DNA from: Gemmatimonadota bacterium
GTDB taxonomy: Bacteria; JAAXHH01
Direction of reading: 5' to 3'
DNA length: 64,000 nucleotides
Assembly (NCBI GenBank): GCA_026705925.1
Contig: JAPOZT010000031.1
Coordinates: 62,001 to 126,000, forward strand
Under the pieces are notes generated by a model, which saw nothing but the letters and a program-made list of their open reading frames with translations, was not told where the DNA came from and searched no databases. This document shows positions 30,174 to 57,898 of this stretch, in pieces. A program made the position numbers and the translations under genes. Position 1 is the stretch's first letter. The number at the start of each line of letters is the position of its first letter.

Positions 30174-31022
30174 TTATGCTTTACTGCTCCGGGTCCAGCC
30201 CCGCGGCCTGTGCCAGGGCTTGAAAAGCGCGCGCTGGTCGTCGTCCCAGCGGGCGAAAGTAGCTTCCGTCACGTAAGGCAGTTCGTCCATGGTCGCCTGG
30301 TTCTGCGAAAGCATCCAGTAGGGCCCATAGCCCACGTGGATGGTCTTGCGGACCTGGTCGGACCGGTTGGTAACCCCACCGTGGCGGAGGTTTTCCGTGA
30401 ACAGTATGGCGTCACCGGCCTTGACTTCCAGCGCGACCACGCCGGGCTCCTCGTCCGGGTTGCCGTCGTAGGGACAGGGCAGGTTCGTCTTGTGGGATCC
30501 GGGTACGACGCAGAACGCCCCGTGATCCCGGGACACGTCATGGATGAAGTAGACCATGCGCACCATCATGCAGTCGATTCCGTTGGCGTTGAACCCGTAC
30601 CGGTACTTCTGATTCTCGGGCCGCATGCCGCCGTGCAGTCCCGACAGGTTCCCGCGGTAGCGGATCCGGATCTCGGAGTTGTTGATCGTGGACCTGCCCT
30701 GGACGATCCCTCCTATATAGGCCATGGTGCGCCCGTCGTTTACCAACACGTCGAAGCGCTCGTCGGCATTCCAGAAGTCCTCGATGATGACGGTTCGGCC
30801 CTCCGCGTTCGATCCGTCCACGTGGTATCCCCGTTCGGGATTCAGGTGATAGTCCGGCCCCCACGGACTGGCCTTGCGCGGTGGCTTTTCCAGATTTGCC
30901 AGTGCGTGGGTTTCCAGTTCGTCCACCGCGGCAGAAAGCGAAGAGACGGTCCCCGGATCCAGCAGGTCCTCGATCACGATGTAGCCCTGCCGGTCGAATT
31001 CATAGCGTTCGGTTTCGTTCAT
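30174..31022 (-). CDS. PhyH-family dioxygenase-like protein with LHGG motif
   Basis: 282-residue phytanoyl-CoA dioxygenase-family protein: N-terminal FDRQGYIVIEDLLDPGTVSSL, then SGLHGGMRP, FCVVPGSHKTN, EVKAGDAILFTENLRHGG and a final VRKTIHVGYGP strand. The usual HxD iron motif is LHGGM (about His 128), with Gly where Asp is expected; the distal His (LRHGG) and the Arg are kept. ATG 31022 follows CAGGAGT with 5-base spacing. It is first in a two-gene unit with the class III aminotransferase. Substrate unknown. Confidence 0.85.
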   Translation of the reverse strand: MNETERYEFDRQGYIVIEDLLDPGTVSSLSAAVDELETHALANLEKPPRKASPWGPDYHLNPERGYHVDGSNAEGRTVIIEDFWNADERFDVLVNDGRTMAYIGGIVQGRSTINNSEIRIRYRGNLSGLHGGMRPENQKYRYGFNANGIDCMMVRMVYFIHDVSRDHGAFCVVPGSHKTNLPCPYDGNPDEEPGVVALEVKAGDAILFTENLRHGGVTNRSDQVRKTIHVGYGPYWMLSQNQATMDELPYVTEATFARWDDDQRALFKPWHRPRGWTRSSKA

Positions 31023-34444: not shown

Positions 34445-35605
34445 CTGTCCCCTTCGGCGACCCGGGTGCTGATGTGCGGTTCGGGCGAACTGGGCAAGGA
34501 AGTGGTCATCGAGTTCCAGCGCCTGGGCGTGGAAGTGGTCGCGGTGGACCGCTACGCCAACGCGCCGGCCATGCAGGTAGCACACCGCTCCCACGTGGTG
34601 GACATGCTGGACCCTTCCGCCTTGCGCGCGGTGATCGAGCGGGAAAACCCCGATTTCATCGTACCCGAGATTGAAGCCATCGCCACCGGCGCCCTGGTGG
34701 AACTGGAGTCGGAAGGGTATCACGTCGTTCCCACCGCGCGTGCGGTCCACCTGACCATGAACCGGGAGGGGATACGGCGGCTCGCCGCGGAGGAGCTCGG
34801 ACTTCCCACGTCGCCCTATCGCTTCGCCGAGACCCGGGAAGCCTACGAACGCGCGGTGCGCGAGATCGGCCTGCCCTGCGTCATCAAGCCCGTCATGAGC
34901 TCTTCCGGCAAGGGACAGAGCACGGTGCGGCATGCATCGGAGGCGGCCGGCGCCTGGCAGCGCGCACACGACGAGACCCGCGGCGGAGCGGGCAAGGTGA
35001 TCGTCGAGGGATTTGTCGAATTCGATTATGAAATCACGCTCCTGACGGTACGCCACGCGGACGGAACGGGTTTCTGCCCGCCCATCGGCCACGAACAGGT
35101 CGACGGGGACTACCGGTACTCCTGGCAGCCCCAGCCCATGAGCGAAAAGGCGTGGGCGGAAGCCAGGCGGACGGCGGAAAAGGTCACTACCGCACTCGGC
35201 GGCCGCGGCGTCTTCGGCGTCGAGCTGTTCGTCAGGGGCGACAACGTGATTTTCAGCGAAGTCTCGCCCCGCCCCCACGATACGGGCATGGTCACGCTCA
35301 TCTCACAGGACCTGTCCGAATTCGCCCTGCATGCGCGGGCCGTGCTGGGTCTCCCGATCCCGGAGATCCGCCAGCACGGTCCTTCCGCTTCGGCGGCCCT
35401 CGTGGTGGAAGGCGAGTCCGACCGGATGAAGTTCGGCAACCTGGGTTCCGCCCTTGCCGAACCGGACACCGGCCTGTTTCTCTTCGGCAAGCCCGAGGTC
35501 TCCGGTCACCGGCGCCTCGGCGTAGCCGTCGCCCGGGGGGATGACATCGACGCGGCCCGCGCAAAAGCGGCCCGGGCCATGGAAGCGGTTCGCGTCGAAC
35601 TGTAG
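34403..35605 (+). CDS. purT: Formate-dependent phosphoribosylglycinamide formyltransferase PurT
   Basis: 400-residue ATP-grasp enzyme making N-formyl-GAR from GAR, formate and ATP in purine synthesis. Seen: [30 protein letters not shown], the VPEIEAIAT segment, [16 protein letters not shown] (ATP-binding lysines near 155-168), [14 protein letters not shown] and [18 protein letters not shown]-like metal site. A 21-bp direct duplication at 34403-34444 doubles the MAALGTP start, so either of two ATGs (34403 or 34424) may be used. It sits downstream of pntB and may be read through. Confidence 0.95.
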
Positions 35606-35645
35606 CGCTCCGACGGCACCGCCCGCATCACCGGAGAAAGGAGGG

Positions 35646-36506
35646 ATGATGCACAGTCAAGCGGAACAGCAGATCAATGTGGACGACCGGGACTGGCGCG
35701 CCCTCACCCGGGGCGAGCGGATCCGGATGATCGAGGAGGAGGGCTACCTGATCATCCCGGACTGGATCTCACCGGACTACCTGGCCGAGTTGAAAGCGGA
35801 AAGCGAAAGACTCGAAACCGTCGGACGGGATTACAGCGAAAAGCAGCGGGGCTGCAGGGATCCGCATCTTGCCAGTTCGAAGCTGGCCGAACTCATCGCC
35901 TACGAACCCACGGTGCGTTTCCTGGAGGAGTTGTTCGGCGACCGCCTGGTTTTCATTCACTATACCTACGACCGGTCCGAACCCGGCACGCCGGGGATCA
36001 GTCTCCATACGGACGGCCAGCCCTACGGCTCGAAGATATTCGGGTACGAGGGGAGCTGTCCCATAACCGTCCGGGTACTCTACTATCTCGACGACCTGAC
36101 GATGGACGTCTCGCCCTTCCGGGTCGTGCCCAGGTCTCATCTCTGCATGCACGCGGACGCCCATCCGTACAAGCGGTATGAGCGCCATCCCGAGGAGGTG
36201 GTCGTGCCCTGCACGGCGGGATCGGCGCTGTTCCTGAACCACCGGACGTTCCACGGCACGCTGCCCAACAGGGGCAACCGGTCGCGGGCCATGCTCGCGG
36301 TGGCCTACCGACCGGCCTGGGCCGGACCGATCGTCGACGTGGAGCCGCGAAATCCGTCGGACCTGGAACGGATGCCCGATTCCGTCCGGCCCTTCCTGGG
36401 CGATCCCAGCATGCGGACCTACGAGTTCGGCGTCGGCAACAAGCCGGAGGGCATGTCGGCCAGCGCGCCCGGCATGAACCCGAGCCGCTGGGAACGGCGG
36501 GCATAG
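35646..36506 (+). CDS. PhyH-family non-haem iron dioxygenase (canonical HxD)
   Basis: 286-residue phytanoyl-CoA dioxygenase-family protein with an intact facial triad: SLHTDGQPYG (His and Asp near 120-122) and RTFHGTLPN (distal His near 202), then Arg in RSRAMLAV for 2-oxoglutarate. Other landmarks: EEEGYLIIPDWISPDYL at the N-terminus and FRVVPRSHLCMH. ATG 35646 or 35649; AAGGAGGG at 35638-35645 is closer to ideal spacing for 35649. ThuA-like gene follows 78 bases later. Substrate unknown. Confidence 0.87.
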   Translation: MMHSQAEQQINVDDRDWRALTRGERIRMIEEEGYLIIPDWISPDYLAELKAESERLETVGRDYSEKQRGCRDPHLASSKLAELIAYEPTVRFLEELFGDRLVFIHYTYDRSEPGTPGISLHTDGQPYGSKIFGYEGSCPITVRVLYYLDDLTMDVSPFRVVPRSHLCMHADAHPYKRYERHPEEVVVPCTAGSALFLNHRTFHGTLPNRGNRSRAMLAVAYRPAWAGPIVDVEPRNPSDLERMPDSVRPFLGDPSMRTYEFGVGNKPEGMSASAPGMNPSRWERRA

Positions 36507-39392: not shown

Positions 39393-40259
39393 ATGGGCTT
39401 GGCGGTAGAGACGAATTCAGACCTGGACCGGTTCGAGACAACGGGTTTCGTGATACTGAAGGGATTCTACCCCGACGGGGTGGTGGAGGCGGCCCGGCGC
39501 GATGCCGGCGAACTCGTGGACCGGTTCGCGAACCGGCTGATGGAGGCGGGCAAGATCACGAGCGGCCACGCCGATGCGCCTTTCGAGACGCGCCTGGCCC
39601 GGATCTGCGCGGACGCACCGGACGAGGCGCCCAGTATCTTCCGCAATGAGCTCCACCTGGCGGGCATGTACGAGGTTTTCTTCCACCCGCCGCTGCTGGA
39701 CATCGTAGAAACCCTTCTGGGCGAGGAACTTCGGCTTTATCCCAACTACTCCATCCGCCCCAAACTGCCCGACCACGCCCCGACGCTCGTACTCTGGCAC
39801 CAGGACGGGGGATACACTTACAAGGTCCACCGCGACGGCGATCACAGCGCGGAGACGGTGGACGCCCTGCGCATGATCAACGTTTGGTCTCCCCTGGTGC
39901 CCGCCCGCGAGGACAACGGGTGCATGCAGTTCATCCCCGGAACCCATCGGATCGGCATGGCCCGGCACGAAGACCGCGAATACTATCTCGAAATCACCCA
40001 GGAGGACCTGGAACCCTACGTGGACCAGGCCGTGTCCATCGAACTGGACCCGGGAGACATCGTCCTCTTCCATAACATGCTCTACCACCAGGGACTGCCC
40101 AACCGCTCCGATCAGGTCAGGTGGAGCATGGACTGGCGTTACCAGGATGCGAGGCAGCCGACGCTGCGCAGCACGACGGGGCATCTCGCCCGCAGCCGCA
40201 TGCATCCCGACCAGGTAGTACGCGACGCCGGGGACTGGGTCCGCCGGTCGTTTCAGTAG
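39393..40259 (+). CDS. PhyH-family non-haem iron dioxygenase (canonical HxD)
   Basis: 288-residue protein of the phytanoyl-CoA dioxygenase family with a complete iron site: [10 protein letters not shown] (His and Asp near 136-138), then [17 protein letters not shown] and [10 protein letters not shown] (distal His near 231) with [10 protein letters not shown] giving the 2-oxoglutarate Arg. [17 protein letters not shown] is the usual N-terminal block. ATG 39393 lacks a strong ribosome site. It is 116 bases after the RHH gene and 32 bases before the NatB-like permease gene. Substrate unknown. Confidence 0.88.
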
Positions 40260-51991: not shown

Positions 51992-52876
51992 ATGGCCATG
52001 TTCGGCGACCCGGAAGATTTCGTCGTGATGAGCGAGCGCGAGAAGTACCTCTACGACCTCCAGGGATTTCTCGTGGTGCGCAAACTCCTTTCCACCGATG
52101 AGGTTCGGGCGCTGAACGACGCCCTGGACGCCCATCCCGACCGGACCGGCGACCACGGACCGGGCGGCGCGCTGGACGGGACCCCGCTGGCGGGGCCCGA
52201 TACGCAGTACGTCCACTACGAAGGAATGCTGACCTGGGACCAACCCTGGTGCCAACCTTTCCGAGACCTGCTCGCCCACCCGAAGCTGATTCCCTATCTG
52301 AATACCATGATGGGCCGGGGCTGGAAACTGGATCACAACATCGACGTGCTCACCTCGAAGCCGGGCGCCCAGGGCACGCCCTTCCACGGCAACAGCACAG
52401 GGATGTTCGCCGGATCGACCTACTACATGTACGACGATGGCCGCATGCGGAGCGGTCTGATCGTCTGCCAGTTCTACCTGACCGACGTGAACCCGGACGA
52501 TGGCGGGCTGACCGTGATTCCGGGCAGCCACAAGGCCAATTTCCCCATGCCGGGATACGTACGCCACTACGAGGACCACCAGGAGATCTTCCATCATGTC
52601 ACTGTGAAAGCCGGCGACCTGGTGATCTTCAACGAGGCCACGACCCACGGCGCGCTGCCGTGGAGGGGAAAGGGTGAGCGACGCTGCGTGCTTCACCGTT
52701 ACATCCCGAAATACATGCACTACGAGGGCGGCGTCTACGAAACGCGCCTGCCCGAATGGACGAAAGAGCTCACCGAAGCCCAGCGCGCGGTCCTGGAACC
52801 CCCGTACATCTACAACCGTCCCTTGATCGAGGACGACGGCGAATCGATCGCGCGTCCCCGCAGGGAGGGGATCTGA
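51992..52876 (+). CDS. PhyH-family protein with HGN in place of HxD (tandem copy 1)
   Basis: 294-residue PhyH-family protein. Fold landmarks: KYLYDLQGFLVVRKLLSTDEV, LTDVNPDDGGLTVIPGSHKANFPMP and VKAGDLVIFNEATTHGALPW with the distal His (about 219) and RRCVLHRYIPK with Arg. At the first iron-ligand position it reads PFHGNST (about His 132), giving His-Gly-Asn, so the carboxylate ligand is missing. ATG 51992 follows AGGAGAG. About 60 percent similar by eye to the next gene, so a recent duplication. Likely iron-dependent oxygenase or a divergent homologue; substrate unknown. Confidence 0.85.
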   Translation: MAMFGDPEDFVVMSEREKYLYDLQGFLVVRKLLSTDEVRALNDALDAHPDRTGDHGPGGALDGTPLAGPDTQYVHYEGMLTWDQPWCQPFRDLLAHPKLIPYLNTMMGRGWKLDHNIDVLTSKPGAQGTPFHGNSTGMFAGSTYYMYDDGRMRSGLIVCQFYLTDVNPDDGGLTVIPGSHKANFPMPGYVRHYEDHQEIFHHVTVKAGDLVIFNEATTHGALPWRGKGERRCVLHRYIPKYMHYEGGVYETRLPEWTKELTEAQRAVLEPPYIYNRPLIEDDGESIARPRREGI

Positions 52877-52890
52877 ATGATTCAGTCTAC

Positions 52891-53757
52891 ATGAACCCGT
52901 CCACACCATACCTCACCATGGAGCCCCATGAAAAGTACCTCTTCGACCTGCAGGGGTTCATCGTGGTGCGCAACGCCCTTGCGCCCCAGCAGGTTGCGGC
53001 ACTAAACGAGGCCCTGGACGCCAATCGCGACAAGCGGAAGGACGATACGGCGAGCAGCACGAGCGAAACGCTGAAGGGCAAGCAGCTTCGCGGCCTCTAC
53101 GAGGGCATGCTGACGTGGGAGCAACCCTGGTGCCGGCCATTCCGCGAGGTGCTGGCCAATCCGAGGATCATCCCTTATCTGAACACCCTGCTGGGCCGGG
53201 GGTGGAAGATGGACCACAGTCCCTTCATCTTCACGTCCGCGGCGGGGACCGAGGGACTGCGCCTTCACGGGTACGGACAGGCAGAATACTACGGATCCCG
53301 GTCCTACCACTACCAGAACGGCGCTATGCGTTGCGGGCTGATCAACTGCCAGTACCAGCTGAGCGACGTGAACCCGGGCGACGGCGGCCTGTGCGTCATC
53401 CCGGGCAGCCACAAGGCGAACTTCACCCTTCCGGACGAAATCTCCCGCTACGAGGCCGATCAGGATATCGTGTACCACGTGCCCATGAAGGCCGGCGACC
53501 TGGTCATCTTCAACGAGGCCACGACCCACGGCACGCTGCCCTGGAAGGGGCAGGGAGAGCGCCGCTCGCTGTTCTACCGGTACACCCCGAAGTACATGCA
53601 TTATACCGGCGGCGTGTACGAAACCGGCCTGCCGGAGTGGACGAAAGAACTAAACGAAGCCCAGCGGGCCGTGCTCGAACCGCCCTATGTCTATAACCGT
53701 CCTTTGATCGATGACGACGGTCGGACGCTTTCGACCCCTCGGCGCGAAGGAGAGTAG
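52891..53757 (+). CDS. PhyH-family protein with HGY in place of HxD (tandem copy 2)
   Basis: 288-residue paralogue of the preceding gene: EKYLFDLQGFIVVRNALAPQQV, LSDVNPGDGGLCVIPGSHKANFTLP, MKAGDLVIFNEATTHGTLPW with distal His (about 213) and GERRSLFYRYTPKYMHYTGG. The HxD motif is LRLHGYGQ, that is His-Gly-Tyr. ATG 52891 lacks an obvious ribosome site; ATG 52918 (MEPHEKYLF) is an alternative that matches the start of the first copy. The TPP enzyme gene begins 21 bases later. Confidence 0.85.
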   Translation: MNPSTPYLTMEPHEKYLFDLQGFIVVRNALAPQQVAALNEALDANRDKRKDDTASSTSETLKGKQLRGLYEGMLTWEQPWCRPFREVLANPRIIPYLNTLLGRGWKMDHSPFIFTSAAGTEGLRLHGYGQAEYYGSRSYHYQNGAMRCGLINCQYQLSDVNPGDGGLCVIPGSHKANFTLPDEISRYEADQDIVYHVPMKAGDLVIFNEATTHGTLPWKGQGERRSLFYRYTPKYMHYTGGVYETGLPEWTKELNEAQRAVLEPPYVYNRPLIDDDGRTLSTPRREGE

Positions 53758-53778: not shown

Positions 53779-55413
53779 ATGACCGGAAACGAAGCGATTG
53801 CGAAGATCCTGAAGGCGGAAGGGCTGGACTGGTTCAGCTGTTTTCCCCACCATCCCCTCATCGACGCCTGTGCGATCGAGGGCCTGCGTCCCATCCTATG
53901 CCGGCAGGAACGGGCCGGCGTCAACATCGCCGATGGATTCAGCCGGATACGCAACGGGCATACCATCGGCGTTTTCATGATGCAGATGGGGCCGGGTGCT
54001 GAGAACGCCTTCGGCGGGGTGGCCCAGGCCTACGCGGATTCGGTGCCCGTCCTTCTGCTGCCCGGCGGGCCGCCGCGGTCCCGTGCAGGCGCCGACCTGG
54101 CCTTCGAATCGGTGGAAAACTACCGGGGCATCACCAAGTGGGTCTCGAACATCAACTCGGCGGCCCGGATTCCGGAAATGATGGGGCGGGCGTACAGCCT
54201 GCTGAAACAAGGCAAACCAGGGCCGGTCATGCTGGAGATCCCCGGGGACGTGGGCGAGGAGGAGATCCCAGACGACGCCTTCGACTACACGCCTGTAAAA
54301 CCGTTCAAAAGCGGCGCATCGCCCGAGGACGTCCGGGACCTGGTCGCGGCCCTGCTGAAATCTGAATGTCCCATCATCAGCGCCGGCCAGGGCGTGCTGT
54401 ACGCCGAGGCCACCGATGCGCTGATCGAGTTCGCCGAATGGACGAAGACCCCGGTCATGACCACGCTGGCCGGCAAGAGCGCATTCCCCGAAACCCATCC
54501 CCTCTCGCTGGGCACGGGAGCGGCTTCCCATTCCCTCATGGTGGCGGAATACCTGAAGAAGACCGATTTCTTCTTCGGCATCGGCACAAGCATGACGTCA
54601 GGGTTCAAATCGGATGTGCCGGCAGGCGCCGCGCTCGCCCAGTGCGTCGTCAGCCACGGGGACCTGAACAAGGAGCACCGCGTCGACTACGGTGCCGTGG
54701 GCGACGCGGGGGTGGTGCTTCGGCAACTGGTCGAGGAAGCGAAACGCCAGCTCGACGGGCGTCCCCGGGACGATGAACGGGGCGATATCGCGGAGATCGC
54801 ACGGCTCAAGCAGGCATGGCTGGCCGAATGGGAACCCCGGTTCCGCTCCGACGAGGTGCCCCTGAGCCCGTACCGCGTGTTCCGCGAGATTGCGGGGGTG
54901 GTGGATGGGGCACGCACGATTATCACCCACGACTCCGGATATCCGCGGGAGCAGCTCGCGCCCTTCTGGGAGACCGATACGCCGCGGGGCTACATCGGCT
55001 GGGGCGCTTCCACGCAGCTGGGTTACGGACTGGGACTGGCCATCGGCGCCAAGATCGCCGACCCGGAGAAGCAGGTCGTCAACGTTATGGGAGACGCCGC
55101 CTTCGGCATGGCCGGCCTGGACGTGGAGACCGCCGTGCGGTCGGAGATTCCCATCATCACGGTGATCCTGAACAACGGGGTCATGACCCACTACGACCAC
55201 CACATGGCCTACGCATCGGAACGCTGGGGAAGCAACCGGCTGGGTGGGGATTACGCCGCCATCGGGGCGGGGTTGGGCGCTTACGCGGAGAAGGTGACGA
55301 CGCCCGATGAGATCGCCCCGGCAATACGGCGAGCGGTGGAGGCCAACCGCGATGGCCGGCCGGCGGTCATCGAGACGATCACCAAGGTGGAAGAGCACAC
55401 GTCGAGGTATTGA
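53779..55413 (+). CDS. Thiamine-diphosphate-dependent enzyme (acetolactate synthase/2-hydroxyacyl lyase type)
   Basis: 544-residue enzyme with the three-domain TPP-lyase architecture. Seen: N-terminal ILKAEGLDWFSCFPHHPLIDA, catalytic Glu in RQERAGVNIADGFSR (about residue 44), FGGVAQAYADSVPVLLLPGG, the central domain with PVMTTLAGKSAFPETHPLSLG, and the diphosphate motif GDAAFGMAGLDVETAVRSEIP with LNNGVMT (GDG-type, about 440-480). It resembles acetolactate synthase, oxalyl-CoA decarboxylase and 2-hydroxyacyl-CoA lyase; the sequence does not choose between them. It follows two PhyH genes on one transcript, as hydroxylation followed by cleavage would require. Confidence 0.88.
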   Translation: MTGNEAIAKILKAEGLDWFSCFPHHPLIDACAIEGLRPILCRQERAGVNIADGFSRIRNGHTIGVFMMQMGPGAENAFGGVAQAYADSVPVLLLPGGPPRSRAGADLAFESVENYRGITKWVSNINSAARIPEMMGRAYSLLKQGKPGPVMLEIPGDVGEEEIPDDAFDYTPVKPFKSGASPEDVRDLVAALLKSECPIISAGQGVLYAEATDALIEFAEWTKTPVMTTLAGKSAFPETHPLSLGTGAASHSLMVAEYLKKTDFFFGIGTSMTSGFKSDVPAGAALAQCVVSHGDLNKEHRVDYGAVGDAGVVLRQLVEEAKRQLDGRPRDDERGDIAEIARLKQAWLAEWEPRFRSDEVPLSPYRVFREIAGVVDGARTIITHDSGYPREQLAPFWETDTPRGYIGWGASTQLGYGLGLAIGAKIADPEKQVVNVMGDAAFGMAGLDVETAVRSEIPIITVILNNGVMTHYDHHMAYASERWGSNRLGGDYAAIGAGLGAYAEKVTTPDEIAPAIRRAVEANRDGRPAVIETITKVEEHTSRY

Positions 55414-55434
55414 AAGAAAAACCACCGGAGCGCC

Positions 55435-56919
55435 ATGCCCAGGATCCTGATCGGTACCTTCTTCCAGGAAACCAACGATTTCCATCCCAACGATACGGTG
55501 TACGAAGATTTCGGCACCCTGCGCGGCCACGAGATGCTGGAGGGTCCGGTCGGCCTCGAGGACCCGGATGACCAGGGCGGCGCCGACAGCCTGGGTGGCG
55601 TGATCGGCGGGGCCGTCCATACCCTTTCCGTCCGGGATGACGTGGAAATCGTGCCCACCTACAGCGCCGCCATGGGCGCGGGTGGCACGATCACGCAGAA
55701 GTGTTTCGAGCGGACCGCGTCGGAGTTGCTCGACGCGATCGAACGGGAAAAGGCCGGCGCCGACGGCGTGTACCTGAACCTGCACGGCGCCATGGCCGCG
55801 GAAACCGAAAAGGATCCGGAAGGATACGTCCTGCGGGAGGTGCGCCGGATCGTCGGCCCCCACGTGCCCGTGGTCGCATCCTTCGATATGCACGGCACGA
55901 TCACCCGGCGCATGCTGTCCCATATGGACGGTTGCGCCATCCTGCACACCTATCCCCACATCGACTGGTACGAAACGGGCGCACGGGCCGCCGGGGTGCT
56001 GCTGCGTATCCTCGACGGGGCCCGGCCCGTGATCGCCAGCGTATACACGCCCACCATGGTCCGGGGCGACGAACTCAAGACCGCCACCGGCGTGCACGGC
56101 ACGTTCATCCGGTACCTGGAGCGCCTGGAGGAGCGGGACGATGTCCTCGCCGGAGGGATCATGCTGGGCCATCCCCCCACGGACTGCCCGGAACAGGGCT
56201 CCCGCGTCGTCGTGATCACGGATGGCGACCCGGACCTGGCGGCGCGGGAAGCTCTGCATATCGGCCGGAGCTTCTGGAACATGCGTTCCCACATGCAGTG
56301 CGTGCTGCACAGCGTGGAGGCGGGCATCCGGATCGCCGCGGAGGCGAAAGGAACGGTCGTTTTCGCCGACGCCGCCGACGCCACCAGTTCAGGCGCGCCG
56401 GGCACGAGCAACACCATCCTGAAGGGATTCCTCGAGAGCGACTACCGGGGCAGCGTGCTGTTCCCCATCCGCGACGATCCCGCCGTCGCACGCGCCATGG
56501 AGGCGGGCGTCGGGCAGACCATCACCGTCCCCCTGGGCGGAACGCGGGACCCGCGCTTCACCCCGGTGGAAGTCACCGCAACGGTCGAAGTGCTGGGCCG
56601 GCGGGACGACGTTCCCATCGCGGTGCTGAAGTGCCGGAACATTACGATCTTCCTGGCGGCTTCCGGCCCCCTGCTGTGCGACCGGTGGATGTATCCCGCC
56701 TTCGGCCAGGACCCGAAACGCTTCGACGTCGTGGTCAAGAAACTGCCCCATACGCCCGACGAGTGGTACGACGACTGGGCTGAACGGACCATCACCATCG
56801 ATTCGCCGGGGGCGGCGAGTCCCAACATCCCCACGCTGGGCCACCAGTACGTGCCCCGCCCCATCTACCCCCTGGACCCCGACATGACCTTCACGCCGGA
56901 AGTGGAGGTGTACGAATAG
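55435..56919 (+). CDS. M81-family metallopeptidase (MlrC-like)
   Basis: 494-residue protein of family M81, known from MlrC of the microcystin degradation pathway. Seen: RILIGTFFQETNDFHPN at the start, GADGVYLNLHGAMAAET, VASFDMHGTITRRML (metal site), HTYPHIDWYETG with ligand residues, and TPVEVTATVEVL in the C-terminal domain. Many M81 proteins in uncultured bacteria have nothing to do with microcystin and probably act on small cyclic or D-amino-acid peptides. It follows the TPP gene by 21 bases and precedes an EamA-type transporter. Confidence 0.88.
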   Translation: MPRILIGTFFQETNDFHPNDTVYEDFGTLRGHEMLEGPVGLEDPDDQGGADSLGGVIGGAVHTLSVRDDVEIVPTYSAAMGAGGTITQKCFERTASELLDAIEREKAGADGVYLNLHGAMAAETEKDPEGYVLREVRRIVGPHVPVVASFDMHGTITRRMLSHMDGCAILHTYPHIDWYETGARAAGVLLRILDGARPVIASVYTPTMVRGDELKTATGVHGTFIRYLERLEERDDVLAGGIMLGHPPTDCPEQGSRVVVITDGDPDLAAREALHIGRSFWNMRSHMQCVLHSVEAGIRIAAEAKGTVVFADAADATSSGAPGTSNTILKGFLESDYRGSVLFPIRDDPAVARAMEAGVGQTITVPLGGTRDPRFTPVEVTATVEVLGRRDDVPIAVLKCRNITIFLAASGPLLCDRWMYPAFGQDPKRFDVVVKKLPHTPDEWYDDWAERTITIDSPGAASPNIPTLGHQYVPRPIYPLDPDMTFTPEVEVYE

Positions 56920-56965
56920 CGCCGCGCGGCCGTCCTCTCGTAACCGTCCCGCCCGCGGGGAAGGC

Positions 56966-57898
56966 ATGAACCGGCACGTCACCAGCGGCCGCTGGGGCCT
57001 GGGGCTGGTCCTCAGCCTGTTCACGATCTTCGTATGGGGCGGACTGCCCATCATCCTTAAAATCATGCTGATCAGCCTGGACGCCTTCACGATGACGTGG
57101 TACCGGTTCGTCGTCGCGGCCGTGTTGATGGCGCCGATCGTGTACCGGCAGGGGCACTTCGGCCTGGTCCGTCGACTCAAGGGCGGTTACGCGCTGGTCT
57201 TCCTCGCGTCGGTGATCGGGTTCAGCTGCGCGTACGTGTTCTATCCCCAGAGCCTGCAGTACATCTCGCCCAGCGCCGCCCAGGTGGTCAACCAGATCTC
57301 GCTGCTGTTCCTGCTGCTGGGTGCCATGCTGTTCTTTCACGAACGGATGGCCCTGATTCAGGTCCTGGGCCTCCTGCTGCTCACGGGCGGCATCGTCCTG
57401 TTCTTCAACGAACAGCTGTCGGAATTGTGGTCCGGGGACAGCGCCATGATTCCCGGAATTCTGTGGGTGACTGCCGCTGCGCTTGCGTTGTCGACCTATA
57501 CCCTCACCCAGAAGCAGTTGCTGCAGATCCTGCCTACCTCCGTCATCCTGTTCCTGATTTACCTGTTCGGTTCGATACTGATCCTGCCCTTCGTTCGATT
57601 CGAATCGTTGCTGGTGCAGGACACCCAACAGATGATCCTGCTCAACGCTTCGGCGGTGATCTCGCTCGTTGCCTTCGTTACGCTGGTGGAATCCCTGAAA
57701 CACCTCGAAGTGTTCCGGGTCAGCATGGTCCTGGCGGCCGTGCCCCTGGTCACCGTCGTGGACATGATGATCCTGGCGCCGCTCCTACCCGGTCTGTTGC
57801 AACCGGAGCACCTGAATCTGCTCAGTATATCGGGCGCCGTACTCGTCGTCATCGGGTCCATACTCGGCAACCTGCGGCGGTCTGTGAAGTCCGTGTAG
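56966..57898 (+). CDS. DMT-superfamily (EamA) transporter
   Basis: 310-residue inner-membrane protein with ten predicted helices in the two-repeat EamA pattern: LVLSLFTIFVWGGLPIILKIML, TMTWYRFVVAAVLM, SPSAAQVVNQISLLFLLLGAMLFFHERM (typical end of repeat one), SVILFLIYLFGSILILP and LVVIGSILGNLRRS. It is probably a drug/metabolite exporter for a product or substrate of the adjacent genes. ATG 56966 follows GGGGAAGG. Upstream M81 gene is 46 bases away. Confidence 0.9.
   Translation: MNRHVTSGRWGLGLVLSLFTIFVWGGLPIILKIMLISLDAFTMTWYRFVVAAVLMAPIVYRQGHFGLVRRLKGGYALVFLASVIGFSCAYVFYPQSLQYISPSAAQVVNQISLLFLLLGAMLFFHERMALIQVLGLLLLTGGIVLFFNEQLSELWSGDSAMIPGILWVTAAALALSTYTLTQKQLLQILPTSVILFLIYLFGSILILPFVRFESLLVQDTQQMILLNASAVISLVAFVTLVESLKHLEVFRVSMVLAAVPLVTVVDMMILAPLLPGLLQPEHLNLLSISGAVLVVIGSILGNLRRSVKSV

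Follow-up and report, generated by a model that had tools for sequence, protein, structure and literature searches.

Loss of the HxD aspartate in HygX-like PhyH proteins is accompanied by a glutamate that may replace it as an iron ligand

The window, a stretch of 64,000 nucleotides, encodes a tandem pair of PhyH proteins (A and B) and a separate third one (C) in which the HxD...H iron triad is absent, and the question they raise is what became of the missing carboxylate. A sequence-only reading of this locus had left three answers standing: a site freed for a halide, as in SyrB2-type halogenases; another ligand in place of the aspartate; or proteins that no longer perform iron catalysis. All three open reading frames proved to be PhyH proteins, matching PF05721 with scores of 69-81 bits, where the curated cut-off is 22; the place of the HxD motif reads FHGN in A, LHGY in B and LHGG in C, and both histidines of the triad are kept (Table 1). 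These departures, as well as the normal HTD and HQD of the remaining two PhyH proteins in the window (35541-36506 and 39393-40259, respectively), had been read correctly, as the translations of the open reading frames confirm; the distal histidine and arginine, described in that reading as retained, are indeed invariant in a 72-sequence alignment (A3), as is the proximal histidine. We take the arginine, Arg230 in A, to be the 2-oxoglutarate-binding residue of the family. A and B are 60% identical, and B probably starts at position 52891 (ATG, MNPSTPYL).

Table 1 Positions in the window of the three PhyH proteins that lack the HxD aspartate and of their putative active-site residues
Feature	Position	Strand	Description
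PhyH protein A	51992..52876	+	294 aa, HGN
A, His132 and Asn134	52385..52393	+	Proximal His; Asn replaces the HxD Asp
A, Glu215	52634..52636	+	Four residues before the distal His; candidate replacement iron ligand
A, His219	52646..52648	+	Distal His
A, Arg230	52679..52681	+	Invariant Arg
PhyH protein B	52891..53757	+	288 aa, HGY; in tandem with A
B, His126 and Tyr128	53266..53274	+	Proximal His and Tyr
B, Glu209	53515..53517	+	Candidate replacement ligand
B, His213	53527..53529	+	Distal His
PhyH protein C	30174..31022	-	282 aa, HGG
C, His130 and Gly132	30627..30635	-	Proximal His and Gly
C, Glu210	30393..30395	-	Candidate replacement ligand
C, His214	30381..30383	-	Distal His

What the sequence-only reading had overlooked is a glutamate four residues before the distal histidine (position H-4; E215 in A, E209 in B and E210 in C). 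Across the source genome, an acidic residue occupies H-4 in 13 of the 14 PhyH proteins scored as having lost the aspartate, against 3 of the 96 that keep HxD; among the PhyH proteins of this genome, we found no such pattern at any other position from -1 to -7 before the distal histidine. The true Asp-less proteins of the genome number 13, with glutamate at H-4 in 12 and aspartate in one. The same relationship held in a wider set of 321 PhyH-type proteins from the source phylum and from Poribacteria, Chloroflexi, Gemmatimonadetes and Armatimonadetes MAGs, where H-4 is acidic in 143 of 144 Asp-lacking proteins but in only 23 of 177 Asp-keeping ones. The sole exception, L009:2239-3087, is a misaligned WelO5-family (PF22814) protein of the source genome whose PHID lies nine residues further on; since it keeps HxD and is not a PhyH protein, we set it aside, so that the true count becomes 143 of 143, and the retained PHID also means that it is probably not a halogenase. 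The acid is glutamate in 141 of these 143 proteins.

The residue left at the old aspartate position depends on whether this glutamate is there. Where it is present, the third residue of the motif is Ser in 42 proteins, Gly in 28, His in 25, Asp in 20, Tyr in 17, Asn in 13, Ala in 11, Glu in 2, Val in 2 and Trp in 1; where it is absent, the third residue is Asp in 157 of 160. Such free drift of the old site only in the company of the glutamate is what would be expected if the duty of the carboxylate had moved there. In the proteins with the glutamate, E215 (A numbering) is by definition fully conserved, and H132, H219 and R230 are present in at least 99%, as they are in the HxD proteins; the set is further marked by K181 (99% vs 28% in HxD proteins) and N183 (90% vs 2%).

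In about 20 proteins (L178, L170, L190, L193, L204 and others), glutamate at H-4 occurs alongside HGD or HFD, so that both acids are present; by their sequences, these could be intermediates of a ligand move, and the glutamate in them need not act as a ligand. Two others, L049:767-1612 and L235:2233-2994, read HSG and have aspartate rather than glutamate at H-4, as does human AspH, by analogy with which they are candidates for a site of two histidines plus water. A further 23 proteins (within L287-L312, from genomes sampled in the phylum of L170, a Poribacteria record) combine HMH with glutamate at H-4 and the distal histidine; this HxH...E...H arrangement resembles the cupin-type set of three histidines and one glutamate and could be another variant of the metal site.

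Because of shared ancestry, the Asp and Glu counts are not independent and Fisher p-values on them are inflated; we did not rely on these values. changes at the aspartate and about three at the glutamate; an independent-pairs test of the exchange was not significant, and with so few events it has no power. Two features of the tree nonetheless favour an exchange. L076:638-1492 (HRD, no glutamate) is sister to L075 (HNG, glutamate) at a fork with support of 98, which has the look of a reciprocal swap, and L085:671-1519, likewise HRD without the glutamate, sits inside the glutamate clade, so that L076 and L085 together represent an apparent reversal. Far off in the tree, L235 lost the aspartate of HxD separately and has aspartate at H-4.

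The motifs are conserved between genomes. In other genomes of the genus, the orthologues of A retain HGN and those of B retain HGY wherever they were read, and HGG was found in 13 of 13 orthologues of C read from the phylum, in which 15 of 16 genomes have a single orthologue of C. The ratio dN/dS is about 0.05-0.15, and strong purifying selection together with the kept motifs means that loss of the aspartate reflects neither chance nor decay. Downstream of A and B, at 53779-57898, are genes for a TPP-dependent enzyme (a match to PRK06154 above its cut-off), a protein of M81/MlrC type and an EamA transporter, which perhaps form one catabolic cluster; the order A-B-TPP enzyme is kept in most genomes of the genus that were read and is not kept among the more distant relatives read. 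C adjoins a gene for a class III aminotransferase.

The closest solved structure was the same by every route. HygX is the best PDB match by sequence (E 3e-10) and by profile (E 1e-29), and Foldseek placed HygX chains in the first 15 positions for an AlphaFold model of A (mean pLDDT 88, pTM 0.89) and in the first 16 for a model of C (pLDDT 81), with moderate TM-scores of 0.58-0.76 between the models and their matches. In the alignment, HGG of HygX falls on the HGN, HGY and HGG columns, and its NEALMH falls on NEATTH; when included in the tree, HygX nests within the glutamate clade (23 rows, support 95; FastTree), on a long branch. A, B and C are members of a HygX-like PhyH subfamily, and the deviation at the aspartate is common to all of it, HygX included. 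According to their titles, PDB entries 4zpi and 4xca describe crystals of HygX that contain iron and Ni plus 2-oxoglutarate, respectively. The abstract of the HygX paper by McCulloch and colleagues (PNAS, 2015) reportedly mentions variation in metal coordination in HygX; our literature search found no other discussion of its metal ligands, nor the motif HGx plus glutamate at H-4 for other PhyH proteins. The subfamily seems far larger than the searched literature describes. A search for viral relatives found none.

We consider it probable, with good though not complete confidence, that A, B and C are active HygX-type oxygenases, dependent on Fe(II) and 2-oxoglutarate, in which the carboxylate ligand has moved from HxD to the glutamate at H-4. 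With the HxD aspartate gone or free to drift, the glutamate, at the end of the strand that precedes the distal histidine, would give a His...Glu-x3-His site; Fe(II) would be held by His132, Glu215 and His219 (A numbering), Arg230 would bind 2-oxoglutarate, and oxidation of C-H bonds by the usual Fe(IV)-oxo chemistry would then follow. From the sequence pattern and the analogy with AspH, we infer direct contact between the glutamate side chain and iron, and either hydroxylation or oxidative cyclisation as the reaction. Of the options left by the sequence-only reading, a different ligand is thus the one favoured, given that the glutamate accompanies every loss of the HxD aspartate; this comes near to the finding that the reading itself had named as counting against a halide site, that is, a nearby acidic residue in the ligand role.

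The analogy comes from human AspH, whose iron has only two histidine ligands, H679 and H725; D721 lies 2.9 A from the water that occupies the empty carboxylate site, activity falls strongly in the D721A variant, and the reaction is hydroxylation, not halogenation (PMC13168262). H725 follows D721 by four residues, and since D721 holds the water of that site, the acid at H-4 faces the vacated carboxylate position in the AspH structure; going by residue numbering, the AspH and PhyH folds may share their register here. The arrangement in AspH suggests another way in which A, B and C might work: the two histidines alone would bind iron, the glutamate would be a second-sphere residue holding water in the empty site, and the outcome would again be hydroxylation. 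AspH itself, with an acid at the same offset, is a precedent, and the aspartate at H-4 in L049 and L235 would not reach far enough to take the place of the ligand. We think this unlikely, because H-4 is almost always glutamate, one carbon longer than aspartate, because bulky Tyr, His, Trp or Asn two residues after the proximal histidine (H+2) restrict the space in which a water could be held, and because HygX carries the glutamate as well. We found no member of the AspH family (Asp_Arg_Hydrox) in the source genome, in a search run without a positive control.

If the vacated site instead held a halide, as in SyrB2- and WelO5-type halogenases, the Fe(IV)-oxo enzyme would chlorinate its substrate. 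HxG and HxA are known halogenase motifs, and C (HGG) and the paralogues in L080 and L091 (HCA) fit them; A and B, in contrast, have the bulky residues Asn and Tyr at the vacated position, close relatives have Ser, His, Tyr, Trp, Asn or even Asp there, and the nearest solved relative, HygX, is no halogenase. The invariant glutamate would be a rival for the site or would repel an anion, and if the geometry of AspH is a guide, it would face the very place that the halide should occupy; AspH also demonstrates that a missing carboxylate does not by itself yield halogenation. We therefore regard the halide option of the sequence-only reading as highly improbable overall: it was rejected for A (Asn) and B (Tyr), and for C, which has Gly but also the glutamate at H-4, it is unlikely. 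A variant confined to C-type members (HGG or HCA), whose residue at H+2 is small, in which the glutamate swings off the metal and the site opens to a halide or another anion, is likewise highly improbable; if it were true, some oxygenases in the clade could alternate between group transfer and either hydroxylation or cyclisation. A missing canonical ligand is also a usual sign of a pseudoenzyme, and the proteins could have kept the fold while losing iron catalysis; the invariance of both histidines, the arginine and the glutamate, the low dN/dS and the crystallisation of HygX, from the same clade, with iron and with Ni and 2-oxoglutarate all speak against this, and we give it hardly any credence.

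A, B and C belong to a large complement: the 3.77 Mb source genome has about 111 PhyH matches, of which the 13 Asp-less ones are part. An expansion of PhyH was previously reported for Poribacteria (PMC3909097), and we counted 151 matches in a Poribacteria chromosome (L170) and 156 in a Latescibacteria chromosome (L227); the family has grown enormously in uncultured bacteria, sponge-associated ones among them. The source genome is that of a sponge-symbiont-type bacterium, and the MAGs closest to it among named relatives bear the titles Latescibacterota or Gemmatimonadetes; the mixture of these titles on records whose A proteins are 91-97% identical (L159-L164) implies that some of them are wrong or outdated. 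In genome mining, Asp-less PhyH proteins are easily mistaken for halogenases or dead enzymes, and a check of one residue, glutamate four before the distal histidine, tells the HygX-like clade apart from true open-site enzymes. Taken as a whole, the set suggests that a metal ligand can move from strand to strand in evolution, with living proteins that have both acids and one apparent reversal.

Among known systems, HygX (PDB 4xc9, 4xca, 4xcb and 4zpi), an oxygenase of hygromycin B biosynthesis that acts on an aminoglycoside in Streptomyces, with orthoester formation on an oligosaccharide as the activity expected of its subfamily, is the nearest: it shares with A, B and C the PhyH fold, a motif (HGG) in place of HxD, the glutamate at H-4 and the clade, and for A and C it ranks first among matches in both sequence and fold, although it is only about 20% identical and has a longer loop after HGG. 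Human PHYH and EctD share the family (PF05721), the fold, both histidines and the arginine, but keep the HxD aspartate, and 154 of the 177 collected HxD proteins have no acid at H-4. SyrB2 and WelO5 resemble C and some paralogues in having HxG or HxA for HxD; we found no close relation to them, the corresponding residues of A and B are Asn and Tyr, and all three proteins carry the additional glutamate. AspH, like A, B and C, is without the carboxylate ligand of HxD and has an acid at H-4 (D721, with H725), but it belongs to a different family, its acid is an aspartate that merely holds water, and it is a published two-histidine hydroxylase.
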